A model generated the notes under the pieces. That model was not told the origin of the DNA and did not search any database. It was given only the letters and a program-made list of their open reading frames with translations. From an uncultured Coriobacteriia bacterium (GTDB taxonomy: Bacteria > Actinomycetota > Coriobacteriia > Anaerosomatales > PALSA-660): a stretch of 44,494 nt of DNA. The position numbers and the translations under genes are program-made. Position 1 is the stretch's first letter. Each line of letters starts with the position of its first letter. The stretch covers positions 1 to 44,494 of the forward strand of contig CAIKZH010000180.1 in the NCBI GenBank assembly GCA_903831865.1, in the 5' to 3' direction. This document shows, in pieces, positions 34,697-44,494 of the stretch.

Positions 34697-36373
34697 ATGT
34701 CCATAGCCGCACGCACAGACGCGCCCCGCACCGCGGACCGGTCGATGCTGACCGGCGCCGCGCTGGCCGCGCTCACCCTCGGGGGGCTGCTGCTGCGCGT
34801 CCTGAGCATGGACAGCCGCGGGCTGTGGCTCGACGAGGCAGTGACGGTGGCGCAGGCGAACCAGTCGGTCGGAGGCATCATCCGATCTCTGGCGACAGGT
34901 GTGCACCCGCCGCTCTATCACATCCTGATGCACTACTGGATCACGGTCTTCGGTACAGGGGAGATCGCGCTCCGTTCATTCTCCGTGCTCCTGGGGACGC
35001 TCGCGATACCTGCGGCGTTCTGGGCGGGGCAGCGGCTCTACGACCGGAGGACGGGACTCGTCGCAGCCGCGCTCGTCGCCTTCTCCCCGTTCCAGATCTG
35101 GTACTCCCAGGAAGCCCGGATGTACGAGATGCTCTTCCTGGCGGGGCTGCTCTCGACGGCGTTCCTGGTGCTCGCTGCGCGTGAGAACCGCAAAGCGCTG
35201 TGGGCCGGCTACCTGTTCTGGACCCTCGTGGGCATGTTCACCCACTACTTCTTCGCCTTCCTCGTGGTCGGCCAGCTGGTCTACTTCGTCGTCGGCGAGG
35301 TCGCGGACAAGGAGGCGGCGGCCCGCAGCGACGGGCGTGCGCGGGCCGAGTGGTGGAGACCGTGGGGACTGTTCGCCGACGTGGACACGCTGTGGCCGGC
35401 GTTCCTCTGCGCCCTGGTCACGCTGGTCGCCTTCCTTGTGTGGGTGTACTACGCCGCACATGTGCAGGCGCCCACCGACAACGCGATCGTCGGCTCGATA
35501 AGCGGCTCGGGTCTCGGCTACGGACAGGAGGCGCCCCGGCTGGCCCTCAGGTTCAACGACATCGCCCTGCTCGCCGTCCAGATGACGGTCGGCTTCCACG
35601 CGCAGCTGACCATGGATACGCTTGTCGCGATGTGGCCGCTCGCCATCTCGTTCGTGTTCGTGACGATGCATCTCTTCCGGCAGATGACCGCACACACGCG
35701 CCTTCTGCTGGCGGGCGTGATCGGGATGCTGCTGATGCTCGCCGTCGGCCAGTGGCAGGGCCAGATCCTCGCGTCGCGCTACTTCATGGCGGTGGCCGGC
35801 GCCCTGTGGCTGCTGATGGCGTGGCTGCTGGCGCGGTTGAAGGGGAGGGCCGCCCGGTGGGTCACGGCACTGCTCGTCGTCTTCGCGGCCGTGGCGTGGC
35901 TCGACCAGTCGTACGCGCCGCACAACGCGATGCGCTATGACAACCGAGAGGCGCTGCAGGAGGTCGCGCGATCCTGGCGACCGGGCAACACGATGATCTA
36001 CCTGCCGTTCTACCTCGATCCTCTGACCGGCTACTACCTGCCGCCGTCCATCCCCGCCCACGGATTCCCAGAGTACGGGGCGTTCGCGCACCTTCGCGAC
36101 AGCCAGGGCGAGATCGACACCGACCTTCGGAGCGTCGTCGGCTCCTCCCCCCGGGTCTGGCTGTTCGTGTCTTTCCAGAACATCACGGAGCTGAAGAACG
36201 ACGCCTACGCCGTCCGGTACTGGCTGAAGCACCAGGGCTACACGGTCACCGAGGATCGGCAGCTGAACCAGGTCGAACTGCTGCGCTATGACCGCACAGG
36301 GCTTCCGACGCAGCCCGTCGTGGCGGCCGCTTCCTCCCTCACCGCCACAGCTCAGGCGGCGACACGCCCATGA
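34697..36373 (+). CDS. GT39-like (ArnT/PMT-type) membrane glycosyltransferase
   Basis: The 558-residue protein has around ten membrane helices and the GT-C signature in the first outer loop, GLWLDEAVTVAQANQS, followed by GVHPPLYHILMHYW. These are the positions of the catalytic acidic residue and the lipid-sugar binding motif in PMT/ArnT enzymes. FQIWYSQEARMYEMLF is another conserved block. A soluble C-terminal part starts near residue 420. Such enzymes take sugars from polyprenyl-phosphate carriers outside the membrane. Its stop overlaps the start of the next gene (ATGA), so it is coupled to the glycan-synthase fusion. The ATG at 34697 opens on a short charged N terminus before the first helix. 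Confidence 0.85.
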   Translation: MSIAARTDAPRTADRSMLTGAALAALTLGGLLLRVLSMDSRGLWLDEAVTVAQANQSVGGIIRSLATGVHPPLYHILMHYWITVFGTGEIALRSFSVLLGTLAIPAAFWAGQRLYDRRTGLVAAALVAFSPFQIWYSQEARMYEMLFLAGLLSTAFLVLAARENRKALWAGYLFWTLVGMFTHYFFAFLVVGQLVYFVVGEVADKEAAARSDGRARAEWWRPWGLFADVDTLWPAFLCALVTLVAFLVWVYYAAHVQAPTDNAIVGSISGSGLGYGQEAPRLALRFNDIALLAVQMTVGFHAQLTMDTLVAMWPLAISFVFVTMHLFRQMTAHTRLLLAGVIGMLLMLAVGQWQGQILASRYFMAVAGALWLLMAWLLARLKGRAARWVTALLVVFAAVAWLDQSYAPHNAMRYDNREALQEVARSWRPGNTMIYLPFYLDPLTGYYLPPSIPAHGFPEYGAFAHLRDSQGEIDTDLRSVVGSSPRVWLFVSFQNITELKNDAYAVRYWLKHQGYTVTEDRQLNQVELLRYDRTGLPTQPVVAAASSLTATAQAATRP

Positions 36374-39231
36374 TCGAGATCCCTCGAGAGGCGCGTGCCC
36401 GCTACCTTCGCACCTGCCGCCTGCTCAGCGCCCTGTGCGCCACGACTGCCGCCTTCTACCTGTCGTGGCTCCTGTTCGGCGCGCGTGCGGCGAACCCGGT
36501 CCTGTTCGGCATCCTCGTTGCAGCCGAGGTGTTCAACCTCGTCCAGGCGGCAGGATTCTGGTACACGATCTCCACGCAGCGCTGGACCGATCCGCCCGAT
36601 GCGGACTTCGGCTGCTTCCCGGGTGGCGTGGACGTCTTCATCACGGTCTGCGGCGAGCCCGCTGATGTCGTGGAGCCCACGGTGCGCGGAGCGGTGGCGA
36701 TACGGCATCCCGCGCTGACTGTCTGGGTGCTCGATGACGATCCGTCGCCCGAGATCGAAGCGATCGCGCTGCGGCACGGGGCGAAGTACGTGACCCGCAG
36801 TGACCGCTCCGGCGCCAAGGCGGGCAACCTCAACCACGCTCTCACTCTGGCCCACGGCGCGTTCTTCGCCGTCTTCGACGCGGACCACATCCCCTCTCCG
36901 ACTTTCCTGGAACGCACGATGGCCTGCTTCCTGGACCGTCGTGTGGCGTTCGTGCAGACCCCGCAGTCGTATCGCAATCGCGGCGCGAACCGTGTGGCGG
37001 CAGGCGCCCACGAGCAGCAGGCGCTGTTCTACGGACCGATCCTGCGCGGCAAGGACAGTGCCGGTGCGGTCTTCTCGTGCGGCACCAACGTCGTGCTGCG
37101 CCGGGCCGCGGTGGACGCAGTCGGCGGCATACCCGAGGACTCCGTGACCGAGGACCTGCGGCTGTCGCTCGTGCTGGTGCGAGCCGGGTGGAGGTCGGCC
37201 TATCTCTCGGAGGTGCTCGCGCAGGGGCTGGGCCCGGTCGACGTGAGCGGGTATTTCGCGCAGCAGTTGCGTTGGGCGCGAGGCGGACTCGAGATCCTCT
37301 TCCGCTCCCGGCCGTACTACCGGGGCATGGGCGTCCGCAGGGCGGTCCAGTACACCTTGAGCTTCATCTACTGGTTCACCGGGTGGGCGTACGCCGGCTA
37401 CATGCTCCTGCCGCTGGCTTTCATGTTCGCCGGTCTGCGACCTGTGCAGGTCCCCAACGACTACCCGATCCACTTCCTGCCTTACGTCTTCATCACCCTG
37501 CTCACCATGGCGTACGCCTCGGGCTTCACGCTCCGTTTCCGCGCGCTCTGGTTCACGCTGGCGAGCTTCCCGGTGCACATGATGGCGCTGTTCGCGGCGC
37601 TCTTCGGCCGCGCGAGGACCTTCGTGGTGACCTCGAAGGGGGAGGGCCGCCGGTCTCTCGGGGCCGTGTGGCCGCAAGCCGTCATGCTCGTCGCGTTGCT
37701 GACCGCCGCAGTGGTCGGACTGGCAGTTCACGGGCCGACGCCTTCTGTGGCCAACAACGCCGCGTTCGCTCTTGGGCACATTCTCATCCTGCAGGGCTTC
37801 ATCGTTCTCGCGTGGAAACCGGAAGGGATCGGCATGGAGAAGTCGCGCGCGGGCGTCCCGGCCCTCGGCTCGATCGCAGCCTCGAGCGCCCGCGCTGTGA
37901 CGCCCGAGTCCCAGCCTGCGCCGCTCCGGCCGTCACCGGGCCTGGCGACCGCGGCCCATCGGGCGGCTCCCCCGGCACCCCGGGCCCGGGTCGGGCGTCG
38001 CCGCGCAGCGGTCGGGCACACGGCATTCCTTGCGGCCGCCTTCGCAGTGGTAGGCGCCGCTCTCCTGCTGGCGTCGGCGGTGCAGTCGCTCAGTGTCGCA
38101 AGAGCGGGCGGGGCGGGGCACGTCGGCGGCTCGCCGACCGCCACCGTTGTTCCCACGTCCACGGCGCCGTCTCGGGCGCCCGCCCCGACCCCGGCCGCTC
38201 TTCCGCTCGCGGGCAAGGTGGAGGCGCCGCGCAGCGGCGCGTACCTGGGGGCGTACGTCCCGCCGGCCCCCTACGACCTGAAGGCGGTCGACTCCTACAC
38301 CACGGTCTCGGGCAAGGGACTCTCGATAGTGATGTGGTACCAGCCCTGGGCCGCCGGCAACCGCTCGGACTTCGATGCAGCGGCGTGCGCCTCGCTCATG
38401 CAGCGAGGCATCGTCCCCATGATCACATGGGAGGCGTGGGACCCGGGCGCGAATGCCAAGACGCTCACCGATCCCGCTCGGCAGCCGGCCTACCGGCTGT
38501 CCGCGATCGTCTCGGGAAGGTACGACTCCTATCTCCGCGACTGGGCCGACCAGATCCGCGCCCTGGGCGGACCGGTCATGCTGCGACCCCTGCACGAGAT
38601 GAACGGCGACTGGTACCCGTGGGGCGGGACGGTCAACGGCAACACGCCCGCCCTGTTCGTGAAGGCGTGGCGCCACATGCACGACATCTTCGAGGCCGAG
38701 GGCGCCACGAACGTCACGTGGGTGTGGAGCGTCAACCACGAGAGCGTGCCCGACTCGCGCTACAACTCCTACGCGGCCTACTGGCCTGGCGACCAGTACG
38801 TGGACTGGACCGCGCTCAGCGGATTCAACTGGGGGACCGCGGGTCAGCGCACCCAGTGGCACACGTTCCAGTTCTGGTACGCCCGGCCGCTCGCCTACCT
38901 CAAGACACTGCACAAGCCCGTGTGCATCGCCGAGTTCGGGAGCGTCGAGCAGGGGGGCGACAAGGCCGCCTGGTTCGCCCAGACCTATCAGCAGGTCCAG
39001 AACACCTACCCGTTCGTGAGGGCCGCGGTCTACTACGACGCCATCGATCGCATGCCCGGCTACACCCAGGACTGGCGCATCACGTCGTCGGCCGCTTCCC
39101 TGCGGGCGTTCCGCCGCGCGGTCGCCCCGCCGTACTTCGTCGCCGATGCTCCCACGGCCCTTGCCGACTGGCAGAGCAAGCTTGCTCCCGACCAGAAGAG
39201 CTTCCTCGCCGGGCTGGTCCCCACCTACTGA
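36370..39231 (+). CDS. Cellulose-synthase-like GT2 fused to an extracellular GH26-like glycoside hydrolase
   Basis: The 953-residue product has two enzymes in one chain. Residues 1-480 are a processive GT2 of the BcsA type: two N-terminal helices, then D-D-D at 122-124 (VLDDDPSP), DAD at 170-172, TED at 260-262 and QQLRW at 298-302 (the QxxRW motif), then several membrane helices. No PilZ domain is evident. A Pro/Ala-rich linker (about 490-545) and a last helix (about 550-575) lead to a GH26-like domain, about 620-910. It has the acid/base E743 in RPLHEMNGDWYPWGG and the nucleophile E855 in CIAEFGS. The likely topology puts synthesis inside and hydrolysis outside. GT2 product and GH26 specificity (mannan, xylan or other) are not known. 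Confidence 0.87.
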   Translation: MIEIPREARARYLRTCRLLSALCATTAAFYLSWLLFGARAANPVLFGILVAAEVFNLVQAAGFWYTISTQRWTDPPDADFGCFPGGVDVFITVCGEPADVVEPTVRGAVAIRHPALTVWVLDDDPSPEIEAIALRHGAKYVTRSDRSGAKAGNLNHALTLAHGAFFAVFDADHIPSPTFLERTMACFLDRRVAFVQTPQSYRNRGANRVAAGAHEQQALFYGPILRGKDSAGAVFSCGTNVVLRRAAVDAVGGIPEDSVTEDLRLSLVLVRAGWRSAYLSEVLAQGLGPVDVSGYFAQQLRWARGGLEILFRSRPYYRGMGVRRAVQYTLSFIYWFTGWAYAGYMLLPLAFMFAGLRPVQVPNDYPIHFLPYVFITLLTMAYASGFTLRFRALWFTLASFPVHMMALFAALFGRARTFVVTSKGEGRRSLGAVWPQAVMLVALLTAAVVGLAVHGPTPSVANNAAFALGHILILQGFIVLAWKPEGIGMEKSRAGVPALGSIAASSARAVTPESQPAPLRPSPGLATAAHRAAPPAPRARVGRRRAAVGHTAFLAAAFAVVGAALLLASAVQSLSVARAGGAGHVGGSPTATVVPTSTAPSRAPAPTPAALPLAGKVEAPRSGAYLGAYVPPAPYDLKAVDSYTTVSGKGLSIVMWYQPWAAGNRSDFDAAACASLMQRGIVPMITWEAWDPGANAKTLTDPARQPAYRLSAIVSGRYDSYLRDWADQIRALGGPVMLRPLHEMNGDWYPWGGTVNGNTPALFVKAWRHMHDIFEAEGATNVTWVWSVNHESVPDSRYNSYAAYWPGDQYVDWTALSGFNWGTAGQRTQWHTFQFWYARPLAYLKTLHKPVCIAEFGSVEQGGDKAAWFAQTYQQVQNTYPFVRAAVYYDAIDRMPGYTQDWRITSSAASLRAFRRAVAPPYFVADAPTALADWQSKLAPDQKSFLAGLVPTY

Positions 39232-42930: not shown

Positions 42931-43734
42931 TTGGACGTGCTCTCGGAAGCGCCGGGCGCGACCCTCTCACAGCTTCTGGCTCCTAAGGTCCTGCTGTACC
43001 ACGACATCACGCAGGGCGGCCGCGTCGACGCCCGCGATGCCCGGCGGCGCTTCAGCGCGCAGCTGGACTGGATGGGTGCCCGCGGCCTGCGGCTGGCGAG
43101 TCTCGACGATTGGATAGAGGGGCGTTTGGGGCCCCGTGACGTGGTCGTCACTTTCGACGACGCGCTTCGTTCGTTCCTGGAGATCGCGCTTCCCGCGCTG
43201 GAGGAGCGTCGCGCGCCGTCGGTGCTCTTCGCGGTGGCTCAGTTCAGCGGGCGTCCCGACGCCGCCCGCGTGTTCCTCACGTGGGACGAGCTGCGAGACT
43301 GCCGGGCGCGCAGTGTCCACGTGGCCTGTCACGCGCGCACGCACGTCCCGCTCGACGAGGTGCCCGCCGACAGGATGCGGCAGGAGGTGTCCGCTTCGAC
43401 GCGCCGGTTCGTCGAAGAGGGGTTGCCCCAGGTGGTGTTCGCGTATCCCTTCGGGCGCTACAACGACGGAGTGAAGGCCGCCCTGATCGAGAACGGGTAT
43501 CGGGTCGCGGTCACCGTGATGAAGGGCGGTGCCGACCGGCTCGAAGTGCGGCGCCGGCTCCTGACGGGCTCCGAGGGCCCGGCAGCGCTGGGGCTGATGC
43601 TCTCCGACTCCTTCTTCGGCATCCGCGAAGGAGCGCGCAGACTCGTGCCCCGCCGCTTCCTCAAGCAGGAGCAGCCGATCGCGTTTGAGCGCTGGGGCGC
43701 TCACGGGTTCGGCCTGCCGGACACGGAGGACTGA
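42931..43734 (+). CDS. Polysaccharide deacetylase (NodB/CE4-like)
   Basis: The 267-residue product has CE4-type motifs: VVVTFDDALRSFLE with D76 and D77, CHARTHVP with the metal ligands H134 and H138 (H-x3-H), and VFAYPFGRYNDGVKAAL near residue 171. These enzymes remove N- or O-acetyl groups from cell-wall or exopolysaccharides. No signal peptide is seen, so it may act on cytoplasmic or lipid-linked intermediates. The TTG at 42931 is chosen over the GTG at 42937 because GAGGAGG at 42916-42922 is eight bases upstream of it. It is divergent from the GT4 gene across a 115-base gap. Confidence 0.86.
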   Translation: MDVLSEAPGATLSQLLAPKVLLYHDITQGGRVDARDARRRFSAQLDWMGARGLRLASLDDWIEGRLGPRDVVVTFDDALRSFLEIALPALEERRAPSVLFAVAQFSGRPDAARVFLTWDELRDCRARSVHVACHARTHVPLDEVPADRMRQEVSASTRRFVEEGLPQVVFAYPFGRYNDGVKAALIENGYRVAVTVMKGGADRLEVRRRLLTGSEGPAALGLMLSDSFFGIREGARRLVPRRFLKQEQPIAFERWGAHGFGLPDTED

Positions 43735-43911: not shown

Positions 43912-44008
43912 CTCGCTCCCCGTGACAAGAGCAAACCCGTCGTGAGGCGGGCTCGCAAAGCCGTGGGTCTCCCCCTGGGAGACTGCCTGGTTGCCGAAGG
44001 TGAACGAG
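43912..44008 (+). ncRNA. GEMM-I cyclic-dinucleotide riboswitch aptamer, position-20 A variant
   Basis: The sequence contains the GEMM-I core in order: GAGCAAACC (43929-43937), a hairpin capped by the GNRA loop GTGA (43942-43945), then CGCAAAGCC (43954-43962), a second hairpin with GTCTCCC (43967-43973) pairing to GGGAGAC (43977-43983), and GGTTGCCG (43989-43996). Aligned by hand with the Vibrio Vc2 aptamer, the base at position 20 (43930) is A instead of the G found in c-di-GMP-specific members. An outer stem (43912-43921 with 43999-44008) could pair 8 of 10 bases and bury the ribosome-binding site AAGGTGA (43997-44003) of the GH26-like gene, so ligand binding may repress translation. The ligand is inferred, not shown. 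Confidence 0.85.
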
Positions 44009-44011
44009 AAA

Positions 44012-44494
44012 TTGAAGAGATTCCTGCGCCTCTGCCTCGTCGTCCCCCTCGTGATCGCGTCCCTCACGTTCCCCGCCGCGGCGGTGAACGCATCGGCTTC
44101 GCCCTCGGCCCGCTGGATCGGCTTCTACGTTCCGGGCGCACCGCTCGACCCCTCTCCGCTCACCACTCTGAGCTCCAAGGCCGGTGAGAAGGCGACCGTC
44201 AGCGAGTACTTCCAGAACACCTCGCAGGGGTTCACCTTCACGCAGGCGACCAACGCCGTCGCCGCCGGCGCCGTGCCGCTGGTGACGCTCGAGTTCTGGG
44301 ATCCCGCCAACGGGGTCGACCAGCCGTCGTTCAGCTACGCGAAGATCTCGGGAGGGTCGTTCGACACCTACCTGCACAGCTACGCCAAGGCCGCCAGGGC
44401 CTTCGGCTCCAGCGTGTGGCTGCGCCCGCTGCATGAGATGAACGGGAACTGGTACCCGTGGGGCGGGACGGTCAACGGCAACACGCCGGCCGGC
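44012..44494 (+). CDS. Secreted GH26-like glycoside hydrolase, N-terminal part (3' truncated)
   Basis: The frame is open to the end of the window. The visible 161 residues start with a signal peptide (KRFLRLCLVVPLVIASL, cleavage probably after PAAA or VNASA). The GH26-like domain follows at once: WIGFYVPGAP near its start and the acid/base motif RPLHEMNGNWYPWGG near the cut. It resembles the GH26-like half of the fusion at 36370-39231 and even shares a 40-base identical stretch. The TTG at 44012 is preferred because AAGGTGA (43997-44003) lies eight bases before it; an in-frame GTG at 44000 would lie on top of that site. The gene is under the GEMM-I riboswitch just upstream. Its full length is unknown. 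Confidence 0.85.
   Translation, partial: MKRFLRLCLVVPLVIASLTFPAAAVNASASPSARWIGFYVPGAPLDPSPLTTLSSKAGEKATVSEYFQNTSQGFTFTQATNAVAAGAVPLVTLEFWDPANGVDQPSFSYAKISGGSFDTYLHSYAKAARAFGSSVWLRPLHEMNGNWYPWGGTVNGNTPAG

Follow-up and report, generated by a model that had tools for sequence, protein, structure and literature searches.

An adenine at position 20 of a GEMM-I riboswitch upstream of a secreted GH26-like gene: c-di-GMP is the most likely ligand

Introduction

Does a GEMM-I riboswitch with adenine at its ligand-selecting position sense cGAMP? The question arises from a 44,494-nucleotide contig of an uncultured Coriobacteriia bacterium (CAIKZH010000180.1; we refer to this whole stretch as the window). 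Near the end of the window, a GEMM-I aptamer precedes a gene for a secreted GH26-like protein. According to the original prediction, this RNA has A at position 20 (numbered as in Vc2), and it may sense cGAMP, or both cGAMP and c-di-GMP, and tie that signal to polysaccharide hydrolysis.

In the solved cGAMP RNA from Geobacter, J1/2 comprises A9-A14 and P2 begins with the pair C15-G40; A14 contacts the adenine of cGAMP (PMC6274999). According to reviews, the G20A variant of Vc2 binds cGAMP, so it is quite possible that the RNA in the window would bind cGAMP in vitro. Position 20 is described as a selectivity factor and not a hard filter: Cd1 was not greatly affected when its equivalent base was mutated to A or C, and a protonated adenine allows cGAMP riboswitches to bind c-di-GMP (PMC9262584).

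Results

The aptamer and its binding pocket

We searched the window with cmscan and Rfam 15. The only RNA family with a match was c-di-GMP-I (GEMM-I, RF01051), at 57.4 bits (E = 9.3e-09; the gathering score is 35 bits). The match covers the full model (positions 1-87 of 87), and columns 1 to 50 align without gaps, so this is a genuine GEMM-I aptamer. The alignment places A43930 at model column 11, which is the final unpaired base 5' of P2 and the equivalent of position 20 in Vc2. By structure, A43930 corresponds to both position 20 of Vc2 and A14 of the Geobacter RNA; therefore, the hand alignment that had named this base was right. The usual G is absent, but G at position 20 is not universal in RF01051, and its absence does not disqualify the RNA.

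Two other explanations for A20 are unlikely. If the register were shifted, G43929 might be the true position 20, but the AAGA/GCA context of this RNA recurs in many verified A20 RNAs from other phyla. An assembly error is unlikely because two copies, on different contigs, both have A20 (see below).

The opening pair of P2, G43931-C43956, corresponds to G21-C46 of Vc2, which is the c-di-GMP type. The RNA does not have C21-G46, which is the opening P2 pair of GEMM-Ib. The original prediction also stated that all of the core GEMM-I blocks are present. This holds for P2, the GNRA loop, P3, and the equivalents of A47 and C92, but not for the usual GA just 5' of CGCAAAG (G42-A43 in Vc2), which is replaced by CU. 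These two positions are variable among relatives from the same order.

Table 1. Features of the riboswitch, its downstream gene, and related loci. Positions are in the window unless another locus is given.
Feature	Position	Strand	Basis
GEMM-I / c-di-GMP-I aptamer (RF01051)	43920..43998	+	cmscan, 57.4 bits
A, equivalent of Vc2 position 20 (model column 11)	43930..43930	+	cmscan alignment
P2 hairpin with GUGA (GNRA) loop; first pair G43931-C43956	43931..43956	+	cmscan structure line
CU for the usual GA in the P2 internal loop (Vc2 G42-A43)	43952..43953	+	alignment
A47 equivalent, stacked between both ligand bases; A41 of the cGAMP RNA (PMC6274999)	43957..43957	+	alignment
P3 hairpin, short form	43959..43992	+	cmscan structure line
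C92 equivalent, kept; Watson-Crick partner of one ligand guanine; C75 in PMC6274999	43994..43994	+	alignment
Shine-Dalgarno-like GAAGGTGA over the aptamer's 3' edge / P1	43996..44003	+	sequence; shared layout; predicted P1 pairing
Possible (weak) upstream hairpin GGGAG...CUCCC over the 5' strand of P1	43901..43920	+	31% of shuffles as stable
Secreted GH26-like protein: TTG start, signal-peptide-like N-terminus, ended by the contig end	44012..44494	+	identity to the 36370-39231 protein
Cellulose-synthase-like GT2 fused to a GH26 domain (paralogous GH26)	36370..39231	+	Pfam
Second A20 GEMM-I RNA, before a secreted subtilase	L002 1501-3077 (G000:C14)

The downstream gene

The start codon of the GH26-like gene is probably the TTG that lies 8 nt 3' of the Shine-Dalgarno-like sequence. 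The contig's end cuts the gene, so that 161 amino acids can be read. By itself, this incomplete protein has no match in Pfam when tested for PF02156 (GH26). It is 38% identical over 146 amino acids (E = 9e-32) to residues 616-761 of the GT2-GH26 fusion protein, in a region that overlaps the fusion protein's match to GH26. We infer that the downstream protein is a hydrolase. The gene for the fusion protein adjoins a mannosyltransferase-like membrane protein (34697-36373) and a polysaccharide deacetylase (42931-43734). These three genes form an exopolysaccharide locus, and the GH26-like gene is in the same locus.

Relatives of the riboswitch in the order and class

GEMM-I RNAs are present in 51 of 61 genomes in a sample that extends from the genus to the order and includes the window's own genome. 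We read the aptamers of this sample directly, leaving out one (L023) that lies at a contig end and was extracted incorrectly, and all of those from the other genomes have G20. Across 398 genomes of the class, searching for an A20 pattern (which misses some possible GEMM-I variants) gave genuine position-20 matches in GEMM-I RNAs in the window's genome only. The remaining matches were due to chance or were out of register.

The closest aptamers, which are short and have the same P2, are from four other genera of the order (G030, G036, G012, and G008), each with G20. In each of them, the GAAGGTGA Shine-Dalgarno abuts the aptamer, as it does in the window, and a secreted protein with PF02156 directly follows the RNA. 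Among 69 genomes from the order, the short RNA is found in five and GH26 is found in nine. GH26 is present in all five of the genomes with the short RNA versus 4/64 of the others (P ~ 1e-5, hypergeometric, uncorrected for relatedness). Thus, the link between the riboswitch and GH26, which was proposed from the window alone, is genuine and has been conserved, usually with G20.

Paralogs within the genome

The draft genome to which the window belongs (2.16 Mb in 192 contigs, 96% complete) contains three GEMM-I RNAs. One, on contig C84, has G20, and its best family is c-di-GMP-I-GGC (RF03167, 63.7 bits). The Shine-Dalgarno at that locus precedes a short ORF of 80 amino acids, with no clear secreted protein within it. 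Another, on contig C14, has A20, as does the RNA in the window. A stretch of 189 bp, running from the region of the upstream hairpin through the signal-peptide codons, is shared at 80% identity by the C14 and window leaders, with no similarity beyond. The genes that follow are unrelated: a secreted subtilase (PF00082) on C14 and the GH26-like gene in the window. The extent of the similarity suggests that a cassette, comprising a leader and a signal peptide, was duplicated, as if shuffled.

Second-messenger enzymes in the genome

The residue that governs selectivity in Hypr enzymes corresponds to Asp344 of PleD and is Ser or Thr in Hypr (PMC9140294). A PleD sequence served as the anchor for lining up this motif, and for nothing else. 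The original prediction suggested checking the genome for a Hypr GGDEF or a DncV-like enzyme. The 96% complete draft encodes 15 matches to GGDEF, with Asp at the Hypr site in 14 of them, Asn in one, and Ser or Thr in none; a SMODS nucleotidyltransferase was not found in it either. It also encodes six EAL domains. Judging from these domains, a c-di-GMP network is present and a source of cGAMP was not found. Because the draft is 96% complete, a cGAMP synthase could be missing from the assembly. The GGDEF with Asn at the Asp344 position (L017; G000:C186:13445-13918) lacks the usual FK motif and is probably degenerate or unusual.

A20/G21 RNAs across the bacteria

The combination of A20 and G21 is not peculiar to this genome: a search for this pattern across GTDB gave at least 118 stretches. 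Among the matches listed, we fetched 80 loci and verified 70 of them as A20/G21 GEMM-I RNAs, using a covariance model that we had built on GEMM-I RNAs of the order. The hosts of the verified RNAs, among the matches listed, include Pelosinus, Sporomusa, Desulfosporosinus, Paenibacillus, Chloroflexi, Omnitrophota, Cellulomonas triticagri, and another Actinomycetota MAG. The RNA from C. triticagri (L138, 7431-7506) is 5' of a short ORF, and the one from the other Actinomycetota, a bog MAG (L101, 168-247), is 5' of a terminator-like stem and a prepilin-like start.

We searched 40 of the A20/G21 genomes, again among the matches listed, for Hypr enzymes by their signature (ND..GH..G[S/T]). No Hypr GGDEF was found in 34 of the 40. 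The six genomes with a genuine Ser/Thr GGDEF are all from the Desulfuromonadales, Geobacteraceae, or Deltaproteobacteria, or are G434 (see below). We rejected the pattern matches outside the deltaproteobacteria, as their translations are not GGDEF proteins.

G434 (Geomobilimonas), a Hypr-bearing relative of Geobacter, served as a positive control. We checked 20 of its GEMM-I RNAs: 17 have A20-C21 and one has A20-G21. Wherever we read the relevant segment of the A20-C21 RNAs, it was CGGAAAG, which corresponds to G46. Two genomes that we chose for having A20/G21 gave other counts, which apply to those genomes and should not be taken as frequencies: Pelosinus has 10 RNAs with G20-G21 and four with A20-G21, Sporomusa has nine and three, and neither has any with A20-C21.

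In five tandem arrays (L132, L136, L131, L116, and L158), an A20 aptamer lies beside one with G20 or C20; no Hypr GGDEF was detected where we searched for one. These pairings are in keeping with position 20 acting as a modulator.

Layout of the leader and a likely mechanism

The Shine-Dalgarno-like sequence starts within the final columns of the aptamer, and the TTG at 44012 then follows. This layout is identical in six paralogs and relatives. In the predicted fold of the window's leader, the GG and the GA of the Shine-Dalgarno are paired within P1, at a probability of about 0.7. The overlap of the Shine-Dalgarno with the 3' edge of the aptamer makes control of translation by c-di-GMP the likely mechanism. 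A P1 helix stabilized by the ligand would hide the Shine-Dalgarno, and translation of the GH26-like gene would drop upon binding, which would make this an OFF switch. Across seven leaders, there was no covariation beyond chance between the P1 strand and the Shine-Dalgarno (permutation p = 0.28), and the stability of the upstream anti-P1 hairpin was not significant compared to shuffled sequences, except in G030. Therefore, it is the placement of the Shine-Dalgarno that points to a translational mechanism, and the OFF direction is a guess. In Clostridioides difficile, the class I riboswitches before zmpI and the flagellar genes are OFF switches that act on transcript level (PMC6200980).

Discussion

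What the riboswitch senses

Our preferred reading, to which we give a probability of roughly 65%, is that this riboswitch still senses c-di-GMP, that it has a derived G20A substitution, and that it controls the translation of a secreted GH26-like hydrolase. Judging from sequence, c-di-GMP is the most likely ligand. We conclude that A20 is a derived base within a c-di-GMP unit that has orthologs in other genera, because G21-C46 and the C92 equivalent are retained, as in c-di-GMP aptamers, because A20/G21 RNAs are widespread, because no cGAMP synthase was found, and because the orthologous units have G20. The substitution may alter the affinity for the ligand or relax discrimination.

Discrimination might be relaxed so far that the RNA binds c-di-GMP and cGAMP about equally. 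If the cell has only c-di-GMP, then this would be neutral. The mutational results for position 20 (PMC9262584) and the prevalence of A20/G21 in genomes without Hypr enzymes would both fit, but our literature search turned up binding measurements neither for natural A20/G21 RNAs nor for the one in the window, and we consider equal binding doubtful.

It is less probable still that the aptamer is decaying and unresponsive. On that account, A20 and the loss of GA from the P2 loop would be signs that the leader is a recent duplicate on which constraint is weak. Positions that are usually conserved have indeed changed at two places, and the leader is duplicated within the genome (on C14). However, the helices, the GNRA loop, A47, and C92 are all intact, both copies have A20, the GA positions vary in relatives, and A20 is common in nature.

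The cGAMP interpretation, in which the RNA is a sensor like GEMM-Ib of Geobacter and couples cGAMP signaling to polysaccharide hydrolysis, is unlikely, and we give it little weight. It would account for the A at the position whose counterpart (A14) contacts the adenine of cGAMP, and an engineered G20A RNA binds cGAMP, but the companion pair C21-G46 is missing; RNAs with A20-G21 are widespread in bacteria without Hypr enzymes and are the exception (one of 20) in Hypr-bearing G434; neither a Ser/Thr GGDEF nor a SMODS enzyme was found in the genome; and the orthologous RNA-GH26 units have G20. It is similarly improbable that a widespread A20/G21-C46 subgroup, including this RNA, has as its ligand not c-di-GMP but cGAMP or another mixed dinucleotide, which an unrecognized enzyme makes in bacteria that lack Hypr enzymes.

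Returning to c-di-GMP as the probable ligand, turning down both the secreted polysaccharide hydrolase and the secreted protease when c-di-GMP is high would fit with biofilm maintenance. More generally, A20 alone should not be read as a sign of cGAMP sensing, because RNAs that combine A20 with G21-C46 are common among bacteria without a known cGAMP synthase. In itself, the finding is unremarkable: this is a further GEMM-I riboswitch, with a derived substitution in its pocket. The orthologous GH26 leaders, with G20 or A20, and the tandem A20/G20 arrays provide a paired set for measuring the natural effect of this base.

Comparison with known systems

The RNA is similar to the c-di-GMP-I riboswitches Vc2 and Cd1 (RF01051) in its fold, P2 and P3, the GNRA loop, G21-C46, A47, and C92. 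It differs from them by A20, by CU instead of GA at positions 42-43, and by its short P3. With the cGAMP riboswitches of GEMM-Ib (Gs1761 and Gm0970), it shares A20 and the overall fold, but it lacks C21-G46, and no Hypr GGDEF was found in its host. Also, the genes downstream of the GEMM-Ib RNAs are for electron transfer, while a putative hydrolase follows the RNA in the window. Unlike its G20 paralog, which is most similar to c-di-GMP-I-GGC (RF03167), the RNA in the window scores best with RF01051. A further parallel is the leader of the zmpI protease of C. difficile (an OFF switch; PMC6200980), where a class I aptamer likewise precedes a secreted degradative enzyme. In the window, the expression platform is probably translational and the enzyme is GH26-like. 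The parallel extends to the C14 paralog, which is also followed by a secreted protease.
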